Source: Akkermansia sp. (GTDB lineage Bacteria > Verrucomicrobiota > Verrucomicrobiia > Verrucomicrobiales > Akkermansiaceae). From it: a stretch of DNA of 64,000 nucleotides. The notes beneath the pieces were generated by a model that did no database searches, was not told the DNA's origin, and saw nothing but the letters and a program-made list of their open reading frames with translations. Location: positions 1 to 64,000 of the forward strand of contig JAFQDN010000004.1 in assembly GCA_017415995.1 (NCBI GenBank), read 5' to 3'. The translations under genes were made by a program, and so were the position numbers. Positions 42,876 to 46,615 of the stretch are shown here, piece by piece; the first letter of the stretch is position 1, and each line of letters starts with the position of its first letter.

Positions 42876-42904
42876 TTTACGGCAACTTAACATAAGTATA
42901 GAAT
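42876..42904 (+). promoter_or_regulatory. Promoter of the lipoprotein-radical SAM cluster (TTTACG-17-TAGAAT)
   Basis: TTTACG (42876-42881) and TAGAAT (42899-42904) have a 17 bp spacer. The first ATG (42920) follows after 15 nt. Confidence 0.5.
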
Positions 42905-42919: not shown

Positions 42920-43186
42920 ATGAAAATCTCTCCCACCACAACACATTCCTTGGCGTACCCCACTCTGGCAGGTATCTCAGCCGGCCTTATTGCCGTAACG
43001 GTGGCATCCTGTAGTCCCGGAGCCCCCTCCGAGCCACCGGCAACAACGGAAAGCCACGCTCTGCAGCTTCCCGGCACCTATACCTACGTACCACCACGTT
43101 ACCGCAACCACGAGGACATCATCCGAGAATACGCGCGCAAGCGCAAAGAACGCCAAGCTCAGGCTGCAAAAAACGCACAACACTGA
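42920..43186 (+). CDS. Small lipoprotein, first gene of the radical SAM cluster
   Basis: This 88-residue protein has a lipoprotein signal ending AVTVASC (Cys near residue 31). The short mature part contains LPGTYTYVPPRYRN and a Lys/Arg/Gln/Ala-rich helix at the end (REYARKRKERQAQAAKNAQ). No family is recognised. It is followed after 15 bp by a second small lipoprotein and then a radical SAM gene on the same strand. It may be a structural lipoprotein or a substrate of the enzyme; there is no direct evidence for either. Confidence 0.6.
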   Translation: MKISPTTTHSLAYPTLAGISAGLIAVTVASCSPGAPSEPPATTESHALQLPGTYTYVPPRYRNHEDIIREYARKRKERQAQAAKNAQH

Positions 43187-43201
43187 ACGTTGACTCCATC
43201 C

Positions 43202-43606
43202 ATGCTTATTTTCCCGACACTCAGCATTCGTAAAGCAGCGTATCCATCACTCGCGGCTCTGGCAGCATCGGCCTTGCTCAACTCCTGCACGAATTCCGCT
43301 CCACAACACGAGACGAACGAACCTGCCCTATTCACCCCTGACAAACAACGCTCACAGAGTGCCAAAAAAGCGTCCTCTCACAAACGAAAGATAAGCACTC
43401 CTACCACTCCTCGTGACCCCCAATTGATTCCCGGTAGGGCTCGCCTCGACCCTCAAACAGGTGAGCTCATTCAACCCGGTTCCGAGCCTCACTCACAACC
43501 GGATTCGCCGGAACCGGCAATAGAAGACCAAATAGAGCTTGGAGAAGTCGATCCTGATTGTGTCCGACATTACCCCTCGCTCCACCTCCGAAATCGCACA
43601 TGTTAA
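43202..43606 (+). CDS. Small lipoprotein ending in Cys, overlapping the radical SAM gene
   Basis: This 134-residue protein from ATG 43202 (a TTG at 43190 is also in frame) has a lipobox-like ALLNSC. The mature part is hydrophilic and Pro/Ser/Lys-rich, and the end reads VDPDCVRHYPSLHLRNRTC, with two Cys and a C-terminal Cys. Its last 7 bases overlap the radical SAM start codon, so translation is coupled. A segment PGRARLDPQTGELIQPG resembles 'DPxTGxl' linkers. Family unknown. Confidence 0.6.
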   Translation: MLIFPTLSIRKAAYPSLAALAASALLNSCTNSAPQHETNEPALFTPDKQRSQSAKKASSHKRKISTPTTPRDPQLIPGRARLDPQTGELIQPGSEPHSQPDSPEPAIEDQIELGEVDPDCVRHYPSLHLRNRTC

Positions 43607-44739
43607 GAGTTCTGACCTGCACTCTGTGTCTTACGCATGATTGCACCCTGCGCTGCAACTACTGCTACGCCGGGCGTAAGTACCGACATGCTATGCGCCA
43701 CGAGACAGCCCGCCGAGCCATCGATATTTGCATTGACGAAGCAGAACGCCTCCGTCAAGGCATGGATCTTTCTTTCTTCGGCGGAGAGCCTCTCATGGAA
43801 TGGGAGCTGCTTCAATGGTGCTACGAATACTTGGAATCACAAGCACACAGGCTCATAGTGCGGCCGCGTTACGGAATTACCACCAACGGCACACTGCTTA
43901 CCCCCAAGCGCCTGGAGTGGCTGGCAGAACGCGACTTCCTCATCGGCATTTCCGTGGACGGCTCCCCTGCTATGCACAATACAAACCGGTGCTACGCGGA
44001 CGGTTCCGGAAGCCACTCCTCAGTGGCTCGGGCAGTTGCGCTCATAAATGAGCACCCGACAGTCCGTTCCAAAGCAATTTGCGTGGTCAGCCCCAACACT
44101 GTACACCTCCTTGCGGAGGGAGTACAGTGGCTGAGTTCACACTTTCGGCGAGAAATCGGGCTCAACATCGACTATTGGAGTAATTGGACGGATGAGCAGT
44201 TTGAAATCCTCTGCAAGCAATACGCGCGCGTGGCGGAGCTCGTTCTGGATTCCTACCGCATGGACACTCCCATTCGTCTCAGCAACTTGGAACACAAAAT
44301 ACTTTCCCACATCCACGCTCATGCAGACAACAAGGATTGCGTGAAGTGCTCCATCGGCGAGCGTGAAATCGGCGTCTCCGTAGACGGCAATTTCTTCCCG
44401 TGCTCCCGCCTCATCGGCATCGGTGATGAGCCGGAACTCAACTTCGGCAATGTGCACGACGGCATCAACCGAGCACGTCAAAATTACATTATTGCAACCC
44501 GTGGCAATACTACCCCGGAATGCAAACTATGTGAGTTCCGCTCGCGTTGCCTCAACTCATGCGGTTGCACCAATCACGCAGCGTCCGGCTACATCAATCG
44601 AGTATCACCCTTCCTCTGCTGCTCGGAAAAGCTTTTCATAGAAACTGCAGACACCTTGGCGGAAACGCTTTACGCGGAACAAAATCCGGCTTTTCTGAAG
44701 CTATTTTATCAAAAATCTCCCGGCCGAGCAGAAAATTAA
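43600..44739 (+). CDS. Radical SAM / SPASM-domain enzyme
   Basis: This 379-residue protein begins with the radical SAM cluster motif CTLRCNYCYAG (CX3CX2C, near residue 20). It continues with FFGGEPLMEW, ITTNGTLLT and GISVDGSPAMHNTNR. A SPASM domain follows with CSIG...VDGNFFPCSRLIGIGD, FGNVHDGI, CKLCEFRSRCLNSCGC and a late CC pair, which can bind two auxiliary [4Fe-4S] clusters. Relatives mature peptides or sulfatases (anSME, sactipeptide and ranthipeptide maturases). No sulfatase and no classic precursor peptide is adjacent; the two small lipoproteins upstream are the only cotranscribed candidates. Confidence 0.87.
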   Translation: MLRVLTCTLCLTHDCTLRCNYCYAGRKYRHAMRHETARRAIDICIDEAERLRQGMDLSFFGGEPLMEWELLQWCYEYLESQAHRLIVRPRYGITTNGTLLTPKRLEWLAERDFLIGISVDGSPAMHNTNRCYADGSGSHSSVARAVALINEHPTVRSKAICVVSPNTVHLLAEGVQWLSSHFRREIGLNIDYWSNWTDEQFEILCKQYARVAELVLDSYRMDTPIRLSNLEHKILSHIHAHADNKDCVKCSIGEREIGVSVDGNFFPCSRLIGIGDEPELNFGNVHDGINRARQNYIIATRGNTTPECKLCEFRSRCLNSCGCTNHAASGYINRVSPFLCCSEKLFIETADTLAETLYAEQNPAFLKLFYQKSPGRAEN

Positions 44740-44894: not shown

Positions 44895-45896
44895 TTACTT
44901 ATTCATGGCTTCCTCGATGGCAACAGCCACGGAAACGGTGGCACCGACCATGGGGTTGTTACCCATGCCGATAAGGCCCATCATTTCCACGTGTGCAGGC
45001 ACGGAGGAAGAACCGGCGAACTGAGCATCGCTGTGCATGCGGCCCAAGGTGTCAGTCATGCCGTAAGAGGCGGGACCTGCAGCCATGTTATCCGGGTGAA
45101 GAGTACGGCCCGTGCCACCACCGGAGGCAACGGAGAAGTACTTCTTACCGGCAAGGACACACTCCTTCTTGTAAGTACCGGCAACGGGATGCTGGAAGCG
45201 GGTGGGGTTGGTGGAGTTACCGGTGATGGATACGTCCACACCCTCCAACCACATGATGGCAACGCCCTCACGCACATCGTCAGCACCGTAGCAGTTCACC
45301 TTAGCGCGCTCACCGTCGGAGAATGCCTTGCGGCTTACTACTTCCACCTTACCGGTGGCGTAGTCGAACTTGGTCTGGCAGTAGGTGAAACCGTTGATAC
45401 GGGAGATGATGTAGGCGGCATCCTTACCGAGGCCGTTAAGGATAACGCGCAGCGGCTTCTGGCGCACCTTGTTAGCGGAACGAGCAATACCGATGGCACC
45501 CTCAGCAGCGGCGAAGGACTCGTGACCGGCGAGGAAGCAGAAGCACTCCGTCTCCTCACGCAGAAGCATGGCGGCAAGGTTGCCGTGGCCCTGGCCTACC
45601 TTGCGGTCATCAGCCACGGAGCCGGGAATGCAGAATGCCTGCAGACCTTCACCGATAGCCTCGGCAGCGTCAGCAGCCTTGGTGCAACCTTTCTTGATAG
45701 CAATGGCAGCACCTACGGTGTAAGCCCAACCGGCGTTCTCGAAAGCGATGTTCTGGATGCCGCGGACAATCTCGCGCACGTCAATACCCTTGGCAAGGCA
45801 GACCTGCTCGGCTTCCTCACAGGAGTTGATACCGTACTGAGCAAGAACCGGAAGGATCTGGTCGATGCGGCGGGAGTAGGATTCAAAAAGAGGCAT
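44895..45896 (-). CDS. GGGtGRT protein
   Basis: This 333-residue protein matches the family named for its GGGTGRT motif (here SVASGGGTGRTLHPDNMAAGPASYGMTDTLGRMHSD, in part). Other strong blocks are QGHGNLAAMLL, FLAGHESFAAAEGAIGIARSANKVRQKPLRVILNGLGKDAA (in part) and GSSSVPAHVEMMGLIGMGNNPMVGATVSVAVAIEEAM (in part). The biochemical role is unknown. Such genes are regularly paired with a NifU-like scaffold gene, which is the case here with a 26-bp gap. A role tied to Fe-S metabolism is inferred from that pairing. Confidence 0.9.
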   Translation of the reverse strand: MPLFESYSRRIDQILPVLAQYGINSCEEAEQVCLAKGIDVREIVRGIQNIAFENAGWAYTVGAAIAIKKGCTKAADAAEAIGEGLQAFCIPGSVADDRKVGQGHGNLAAMLLREETECFCFLAGHESFAAAEGAIGIARSANKVRQKPLRVILNGLGKDAAYIISRINGFTYCQTKFDYATGKVEVVSRKAFSDGERAKVNCYGADDVREGVAIMWLEGVDVSITGNSTNPTRFQHPVAGTYKKECVLAGKKYFSVASGGGTGRTLHPDNMAAGPASYGMTDTLGRMHSDAQFAGSSSVPAHVEMMGLIGMGNNPMVGATVSVAVAIEEAMNK

Positions 45897-45922
45897 AATC
45901 TTGTCTGTGTGTTAAGGGTTCT

Positions 45923-46615
45923 TTACTCGTGGCGGGGGTCAATGTACTTGGCGGCATCAGCAAAACGGCCGTAGGAGCCGGTGTGCTTCTTGAGCGCCTC
46001 ATTTGCGTCCATGCCCTTCTTGATGTCTTCCATCATCGGGCCCATCTTGACGTACTGGTAACCGGTAATCTCACCATCAGCGTCCAAAGCAAGCTTGGTG
46101 ATGTAGCCCTCAGCGAGCTCCAAGTAACGCGGTCCCTTGGCCAGCGTGCCGTACAGCGTACCCGTCTGGGAGCGCAGGCCCTTGCCCAAGTCCTCCAAAC
46201 CGGCGCCGATGGGCAGACCGCCCTCAGAGTATGCGCTCTGGGTGCGTCCATAGACAATCTGAAGGAAAAGCTCGCGCATGGCGGTGTTGATGGCATCGCA
46301 CACAAGGTCTGTGTTGAGTGCCTCCTGAATGGTCTTGCCGGGAAGAATCTCACTGGCCATAGCGGCAGAGTGAGTCATGCCGGAGCAACCGATGGTCTCC
46401 ACAAGAGCCTCCTGAATAACGCCGTTCTTTACGTTGAGCGTCAGTTTGCAGGCACCCTGCTGAGGGGCGCACCAACCCACACCGTGGGTCAGGCCGGAAA
46501 TTTCCTCGGTCTTCGTGACTGCGGTCCATGCCCCCTCCTGCGGGATGGGAGCCGGGCCGTGATTGCAGCCCTTCTTGACGCAACACATGTGTTCTACTTC
46601 GTGTGTGTACTGCAT
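45923..46615 (-). CDS. NifU-like iron-sulfur cluster assembly scaffold protein
   Basis: This 230-residue protein has a Cys-rich N-terminus (MCCVKKGCNHG). The NifU/IscU-like core follows, with GVGWCAPQQGACKLTLNV, VETIGCSGMTHSAAMASEILPGKTIQEALNTD (in part) and a last Cys in TDLVCDAI. This gives the three-Cys arrangement expected for a scaffold. The C-terminal ~90 residues are specific to the GGGtGRT-associated subfamily. It precedes the GGGtGRT gene in an operon. Confidence 0.85.
   Translation of the reverse strand: MQYTHEVEHMCCVKKGCNHGPAPIPQEGAWTAVTKTEEISGLTHGVGWCAPQQGACKLTLNVKNGVIQEALVETIGCSGMTHSAAMASEILPGKTIQEALNTDLVCDAINTAMRELFLQIVYGRTQSAYSEGGLPIGAGLEDLGKGLRSQTGTLYGTLAKGPRYLELAEGYITKLALDADGEITGYQYVKMGPMMEDIKKGMDANEALKKHTGSYGRFADAAKYIDPRHE

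Follow-up and report, generated by a model that had tools for sequence, protein, structure and literature searches.

What does a radical SAM/SPASM enzyme do when its gene ends a row of small lipoprotein genes? The question is raised by three genes on the + strand of the window (the whole 64,000-nucleotide stretch of Akkermansia DNA analyzed here), which encode lipoprotein A (88 aa), lipoprotein B (134 aa), and a SPASM radical SAM enzyme. The original prediction was that an exported lipoprotein is modified by the enzyme, as part of an undescribed system, or else that the target lies elsewhere. The coordinates (Table 1) and the enzyme's cysteine set confirm the layout it described, including the 7-bp overlap between the gene for B and that for the enzyme (43600-43606), and the enzyme start at the ATG at 43600 agrees with an alignment of 25 relatives. 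The promoter that had been placed ahead of the lipoproteins did not hold up: a scan for sigma-70-like sites gave 2 matches versus 1.6 expected in shuffled sequences, and the site at 42876-42904 is not above chance. After the enzyme, on the − strand at 44895-46615, two adjoining genes resemble a GGGtGRT-type protein and an iron-sulfur scaffold protein (judged by eye only). Our best explanation is that this row of genes is a compact operon for RiPP-type maturation.

Table 1. Features of the three-gene row, with positions in the window; precursor, core, and maturase are inferred roles.
Feature	Position	Strand	Remarks
Precursor A, 88-aa lipoprotein	42920..43186	+	Leader MKISPTTTHSLAYP, lipobox VASC, one core; leader profile E=2.5e-11
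YP leader of precursor A (n-region of signal peptide)	42920..42961	+	MKIxP...YP, kept in homologues
Hydrophobic signal region and lipobox Cys, precursor A	42965..43012	+	LAGISAGLIAVTVASC
Core motif of precursor A, LQLPGTYTYVPP	43061..43096	+	PHI-x-G core class, above shuffles
Precursor B, 134-aa lipoprotein	43202..43606	+	Leader MLIFPTLSIRKAAYP, lipobox LNSC; leader profile E=9.5e-12
YP leader of precursor B	43202..43246	+	
Hydrophobic signal region and lipobox Cys, precursor B	43247..43288	+	SLAALAASALLNSC
Core motif of precursor B, QLIPGRARLDP	43421..43453	+	Similar to relatives' cores QAVIGRAR and MVIGKAQIDPQTG
Possible second core, precursor B, ELIQPGSEP (weaker)	43463..43489	+	
Possible third core, precursor B, QIELGEVDP (weaker)	43529..43555	+	
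Radical SAM/SPASM maturase, 379 aa	43600..44739	+	Radical_SAM PF04055; nearest NCBIfam PapB, below cut-off; AlphaFold CteB-like fold
CxxxCxxC [4Fe-4S]/SAM motif, CTLRCNYC	43642..43665	+	Three Cys invariant in 25 relatives
SPASM auxiliary-cluster cysteines C250 to C340	44347..44619	+	All invariant in alignment of relatives

The enzyme qualifies as a radical SAM/SPASM peptide maturase, for which CxxxCxxC and the SPASM cysteine pattern are required. Its set is complete (CxxxCxxC plus C250-x12-G-x4-C268, C308xxC311x5C317x3C321, and C340), and all of these SPASM cysteines, like the CxxxCxxC, are invariant across the 25 relatives. In Pfam, PF04055 was above its cut-off and the SPASM model PF13186 was below (17.2 versus the 21.5 bits needed). 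No NCBIfam model names the enzyme; the nearest was PapB (NF047865), with 212 bits versus a cut-off of 340. Six further enzymes from both phyla sampled (see below) gave 183 to 218 bits to the PapB model, also below the cut-off, and reached no other NCBIfam family at E≤1e-45. Because of this, the enzymes appear from their sequences to behave as a coherent sister group that has no name in NCBIfam.

The AlphaFold model of the enzyme (pLDDT 90.8) matched the structure of CteB (5WHY/5WGG) best, with a TM score of 0.80, followed by anSMEcpe, ChlB, and TigE, all of which mature peptides. Residues 9 to 351 align to residues 100 to 445 of CteB. Unlike CteB, the enzyme starts at the radical SAM core, and its predicted model begins at the barrel; the ∼90 N-terminal residues that precede the barrel of CteB, which form its RRE, are absent. 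Thus, the enzyme does not meet the requirement for an N-terminal RRE, and if it recognizes a leader, it must do so with a different surface. The presence of anSMEcpe among the structural matches, and a score of 96 bits to TIGR03942, would fit an anaerobic sulfatase-maturase-like enzyme with a distant target of the formylglycine type. However, that score is far under the 349-bit cut-off, and the neighbor that recurs across phyla is not a sulfatase but an exported protein with a YP leader, which makes this reading highly improbable.

Two other identities were considered and discarded. A search for anti-phage defense genes gave only viperin matches that are generic to the radical SAM barrel, and a defense role was dropped. 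In the TIGR04133 rSAM/lipoprotein system of the Bacteroidales, a radical SAM enzyme is associated with a lipoprotein. When the genome was searched with TIGR04133, the window enzyme was not among the matches even at E≤1; the matches were elsewhere only and below the cut-off. This family, that of Haft, was ruled out because the model does not match the enzyme. The same genome has more radical SAM genes (L002-L004 and L126-L127, contigs C66 and C31); two on C66 are neighbors, and C31 has two weak TIGR04133-like matches.

We examined enzyme relatives drawn from the family, from the phylum, and from the phylum of a deltaproteobacterial genome. The gene pairing recurs across species and in both phyla (Verrucomicrobiota and that of the deltaproteobacterial genome), and because it does, the arrangement of enzyme and exported protein is, on sequence grounds, not due to chance. 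The relatives adjoin from one to about fourteen exported YP-leader proteins, and in most close relatives small exported proteins with the shared leader are encoded directly upstream of the enzyme. An upstream exported YP-leader ORF was present at 37 of 66 enzyme loci, versus 3 of 66 when the antisense strand at these loci was read; among control stretches, 239 of 2,000 (12%) had an upstream YP-leader ORF. Leaders were variant at L014, L036, L048, and L049, and partners were downstream at L026, L055, L079, L080, and L086. For several more distant enzymes (e.g., L073-L076, L082-L085, L087, and L088), there was no clear partner within the stretch examined. A different conserved partner for homologous enzymes would have refuted the original prediction, but the opposite was found; the YP-leader exported protein recurs across two phyla, which supports an undescribed system acting on an exported lipoprotein, the modification itself being inferred.

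The co-occurrence that the prediction implied was also found within the genus. With thresholds of E≤1e-3 for the leader profile and E≤1e-50 for the enzyme, the two agreed in 69 of 76 genomes (44 with both and 25 with neither), leaving 7 discordant (3 with the leader only and 4 with the enzyme only). Fisher's test gave p = 8e-13, or p = 9e-11 when the 11 genomes from which the leader profile had been built were set aside; because the species are related, the genus counts are not phylogenetically independent and these values overstate independence. Three of the four enzyme-only genomes have adjoining lipoproteins with variant YP leaders, and the enzyme of the fourth is at a contig end. Two of the leader-only genomes have a distal precursor cluster near ruvB, and their enzymes may be missing through incompleteness. 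In the third, G189, the precursor (L130:2828-3109) has no enzyme gene beside it and no enzyme was detected; recent loss of the enzyme is possible.

Precursors can also be distant from the enzyme. Two genomes have solitary enzymes and, elsewhere, precursor clusters that adjoin ruvB (L123 and L124); one of these clusters has an RtcB-like gene on its other flank. Such ruvB-adjacent precursors were seen in several Akkermansia-like genomes (L123:2658-3619, L124:2762-3848, L131:2880-3645, and L132:2487-2654). A third precursor of the window's genome lies on a different contig (L125), so the suggestion that the target lies elsewhere was right in part, but the adjoining lipoproteins remain the recurring partner. 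At the other extreme, an array of about fourteen YP-leader precursors lies beside one enzyme in G825 (L122:3593-12413). Several members of this array are similar lipopeptides of 57 to 67 aa that end in KDKK, two of them nearly identical; others are longer.

What the partner proteins have in common is a bipartite leader, MK[VI]xP-x5-P[GA]YP[TS], ahead of a Sec/Tat signal peptide that begins immediately after it. With YP as the reference point of an ungapped alignment, M-K-[VI]-x-P and P-[GA] were at fixed spacing in both phyla; examples are MKISPTTTHSLAYPT (window), KTGYPTRREM (L020), KVEPVRRYRRPGYPT (L026), and IPGYPTRREL (L037). Both window precursors and most relatives carry a lipobox, and some relatives use other signals; at several loci of the second phylum (L069 and L070), the signal resembles that of Tat. 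Lipobox and Tat calls were made by eye, without a signal-peptide predictor. The precursors at L046, L047, L052, and L058 have no lipobox and retain both leader and core; in such proteins, a signal peptidase I site is likely. Because some precursors lack a lipobox, the lipid-bearing Cys is not the shared target.

Compared with NCBIfam and Pfam, the precursors gave nothing above cut-off except LysM domains in two proteins encoded beside the enzyme (L052:818-1321 and L061:947-1435), and the window pair had no match in PHROGs. The predicted LysM domains suggest an envelope location, and such partners may hold modified segments (the modification being inferred) at the peptidoglycan. Folded or LysM domains on some partners, together with the lack of direct modification data, leave room for the lipoproteins being partners of the enzyme (a membrane anchor, chaperone, or scaffold) while its true target is elsewhere. 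We consider this very unlikely, since the sequences vary freely outside leader and core, paralogues accumulate in arrays (up to ∼14 at L122), and their predicted export would take the proteins away from a cytosolic enzyme. Free variation, arrays, and predicted export are the pattern of substrates.

If the lipoproteins are substrates, where would they be modified? The core of most mature parts is [KR]-PHI-x-G-[KRDE]-[VI]-x-x-P. In 52 precursors with 3,826 mature residues, PHI-x-G-x-[VIAPML] was observed 90 times versus 29.7 ± 5.2 in shuffled sequences. Before the core Gly, aliphatic residues were enriched at −2 (z = 8.5), K/R at −3 (z = 4.0), and Q at −4 (z = 8.3); after it, K/R were enriched at +1 (z = 5.3), V/I at +2 (z = 7.5), and P at +5 to +7. 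Most mature parts have at least one short PHI-x-G-x-[VI/P] core, and up to several, within linkers rich in Pro, and the same core is found in both phyla, e.g., RLRGDIAVEP (L047), LEGDIAYPTPP (L054), and QIDGDIAEPE (L072). Core spacing is loose, and the strict pattern is absent from 12 of the 52. These precursors were gathered by leader and adjacency and then assembled by hand, so a bias toward core-bearing proteins is possible; the L011 precursor, which has no glycine in its mature part, was excluded.

These cores bear on the chemistry. PapB, like the enzyme described here, combines radical SAM and SPASM domains with repeated short cores, and it was the best NCBIfam match for all seven enzymes scanned, in two phyla; moreover, CteB, the nearest solved fold, is a thioether-forming enzyme. 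A PapB-type enzyme would make ranthipeptides, in which a thioether links the thiol of a Cys to an acidic or aliphatic residue close by, and some cores do contain Cys (GSVPCP and FGCVAVNPP). Precursor B has DPDC and ends in Cys, a terminal residue to which the original prediction had drawn attention; it is not conserved in homologues and was rejected as a core. However, Cys was not enriched at positions beside the core Gly in the 52 precursors, many precursors have their only Cys in the lipobox or contain no Cys, and every PapB score was far under the cut-off. PapB substrates have a Cys-X3-Asp type motif (PMC9413430); here, neither that motif nor the 340-bit requirement is met, and the partners are exported lipoproteins whose cores are of the PHI-x-G type rather than CX3D. 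Because the cores are mostly Cys-free, thioether chemistry is unlikely.

A parallel for such cores is TvgA/TvgB, in which a SPASM enzyme converts TVGG to cyclopropylglycine, repeatedly and without Cys (PMC9062424). The action inferred here is likewise repeated on short aliphatic-Gly motifs that lack Cys; in TvgA, however, Val directly precedes Gly in tandem TVGG motifs, and the genes are in a dedicated five-gene cluster with transporter/peptidase genes (PMC9062424). By analogy with TvgB and with TigE (8vpo), the Cys-free aliphatic-Gly motif favors a side-chain or backbone change over a thioether.

Partners with Cys in their repeats or cores were also encountered. The ORFs upstream of the enzyme at L056, L057, L059, L060, and L063 encode proteins of ∼280 to 300 aa that have a YPT leader and share an invariant FGC motif (GRGSFGCVAVNPP); this is a core variant with Cys, found in a larger protein family that has no name. 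The predicted model of the partner domain (L056 group) has a pLDDT of 54, too low for its fold to be interpreted. Beside the enzyme at L066:123-1475 are lipoproteins with repeated CEPCNPSSxCYDExxPECKLGGDLP units, a Cys-rich precursor type. Downstream of the enzyme at L079:3-1454, on the − strand, is a long lipoprotein with Cys-rich repeats and leader EVRPVKRYDGAQYP, which differs from the short Pro-rich precursors.

We think it probable that the enzyme, bound to the YP leader, alters the PHI-x-G cores in the cytosol before export, although the modification is inferred and none has been observed. Because there is no N-terminal RRE domain, the enzyme would recognize the leader directly. A 5'-deoxyadenosyl radical, with two auxiliary [4Fe-4S] clusters, would change an aliphatic residue near the core Gly, most likely by taking 2 Da off each core (through cyclopropanation, desaturation, or a new aliphatic C-C or C-X bond) or by epimerization. 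The modified precursor would then leave by ordinary export. In lipobox forms, Lgt, signal peptidase II, and Lnt would remove leader and signal together and lipid-anchor the modified protein; in other forms, signal peptidase I would take off both in one step. With general export and signal peptidase doing this work, the system would need no peptidase or transporter of its own, and none is encoded. The smallest of the predicted products are peptides that are anchored by a lipid and ∼18 residues long (CEQEQVPQALGGVFPAQK, L015).

Lipidated RiPPs have been described. In the DAG-RiPPs (DybA/DybH and NedA/NedB), precursors modified by MNIOs can travel the lipoprotein pathway; DybH recognizes a motif at the C terminus, and leader-independent pathways were what the authors, who mined MNIOs, expected (PMC12636315). 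The system described here meets two tests of membership, a lipobox on the precursor (by eye, in the window precursors and most relatives) and a modifying enzyme encoded with it (by adjacency and co-occurrence). As in DAG-RiPPs, the precursor has a lipoprotein signal, and a cytosolic enzyme would act before the general lipoprotein pathway lipidates the precursor and removes the signal. Unlike in DAG-RiPPs, the enzyme is a radical SAM/SPASM protein, not an MNIO, and a conserved leader is fused before the signal peptide. Given this parallel, the failure of PapB membership, and the lack of a TIGR04133 match, we therefore regard the system as a new form of lipidated RiPP, one that uses a radical SAM enzyme and, by inference, depends on a leader, with neither modification nor lipidation demonstrated. 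The open-licence literature that we searched on radical SAM enzymes with lipoproteins, lipoboxes, Akkermansia, or Verrucomicrobia does not describe the system, nor did we find a leader-dependent radical SAM lipidated RiPP in it.

The broader proposal is of a multi-phylum class in which a RiPP leader is fused before a Sec/Tat signal, general secretion replaces protease and exporter, and a new Cys-free modification is made at PHI-x-G-x-PHI cores of envelope proteins, including the ∼18-residue lipid-anchored peptides; we consider it about as likely as not. The YP leader plus the PHI-x-G core provides a search handle for a class that is unnamed in the family libraries searched and that occurs in gut Akkermansia relatives and in other phyla. 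If the proposal is true, RiPP-type peptide modification would be joined to lipoprotein export, a link previously made only for MNIO enzymes, and only recently; this would be a radical SAM version, in which leader and signal peptide are lost in one cut, and it would bring a testable Cys-free radical chemistry to surface proteins.
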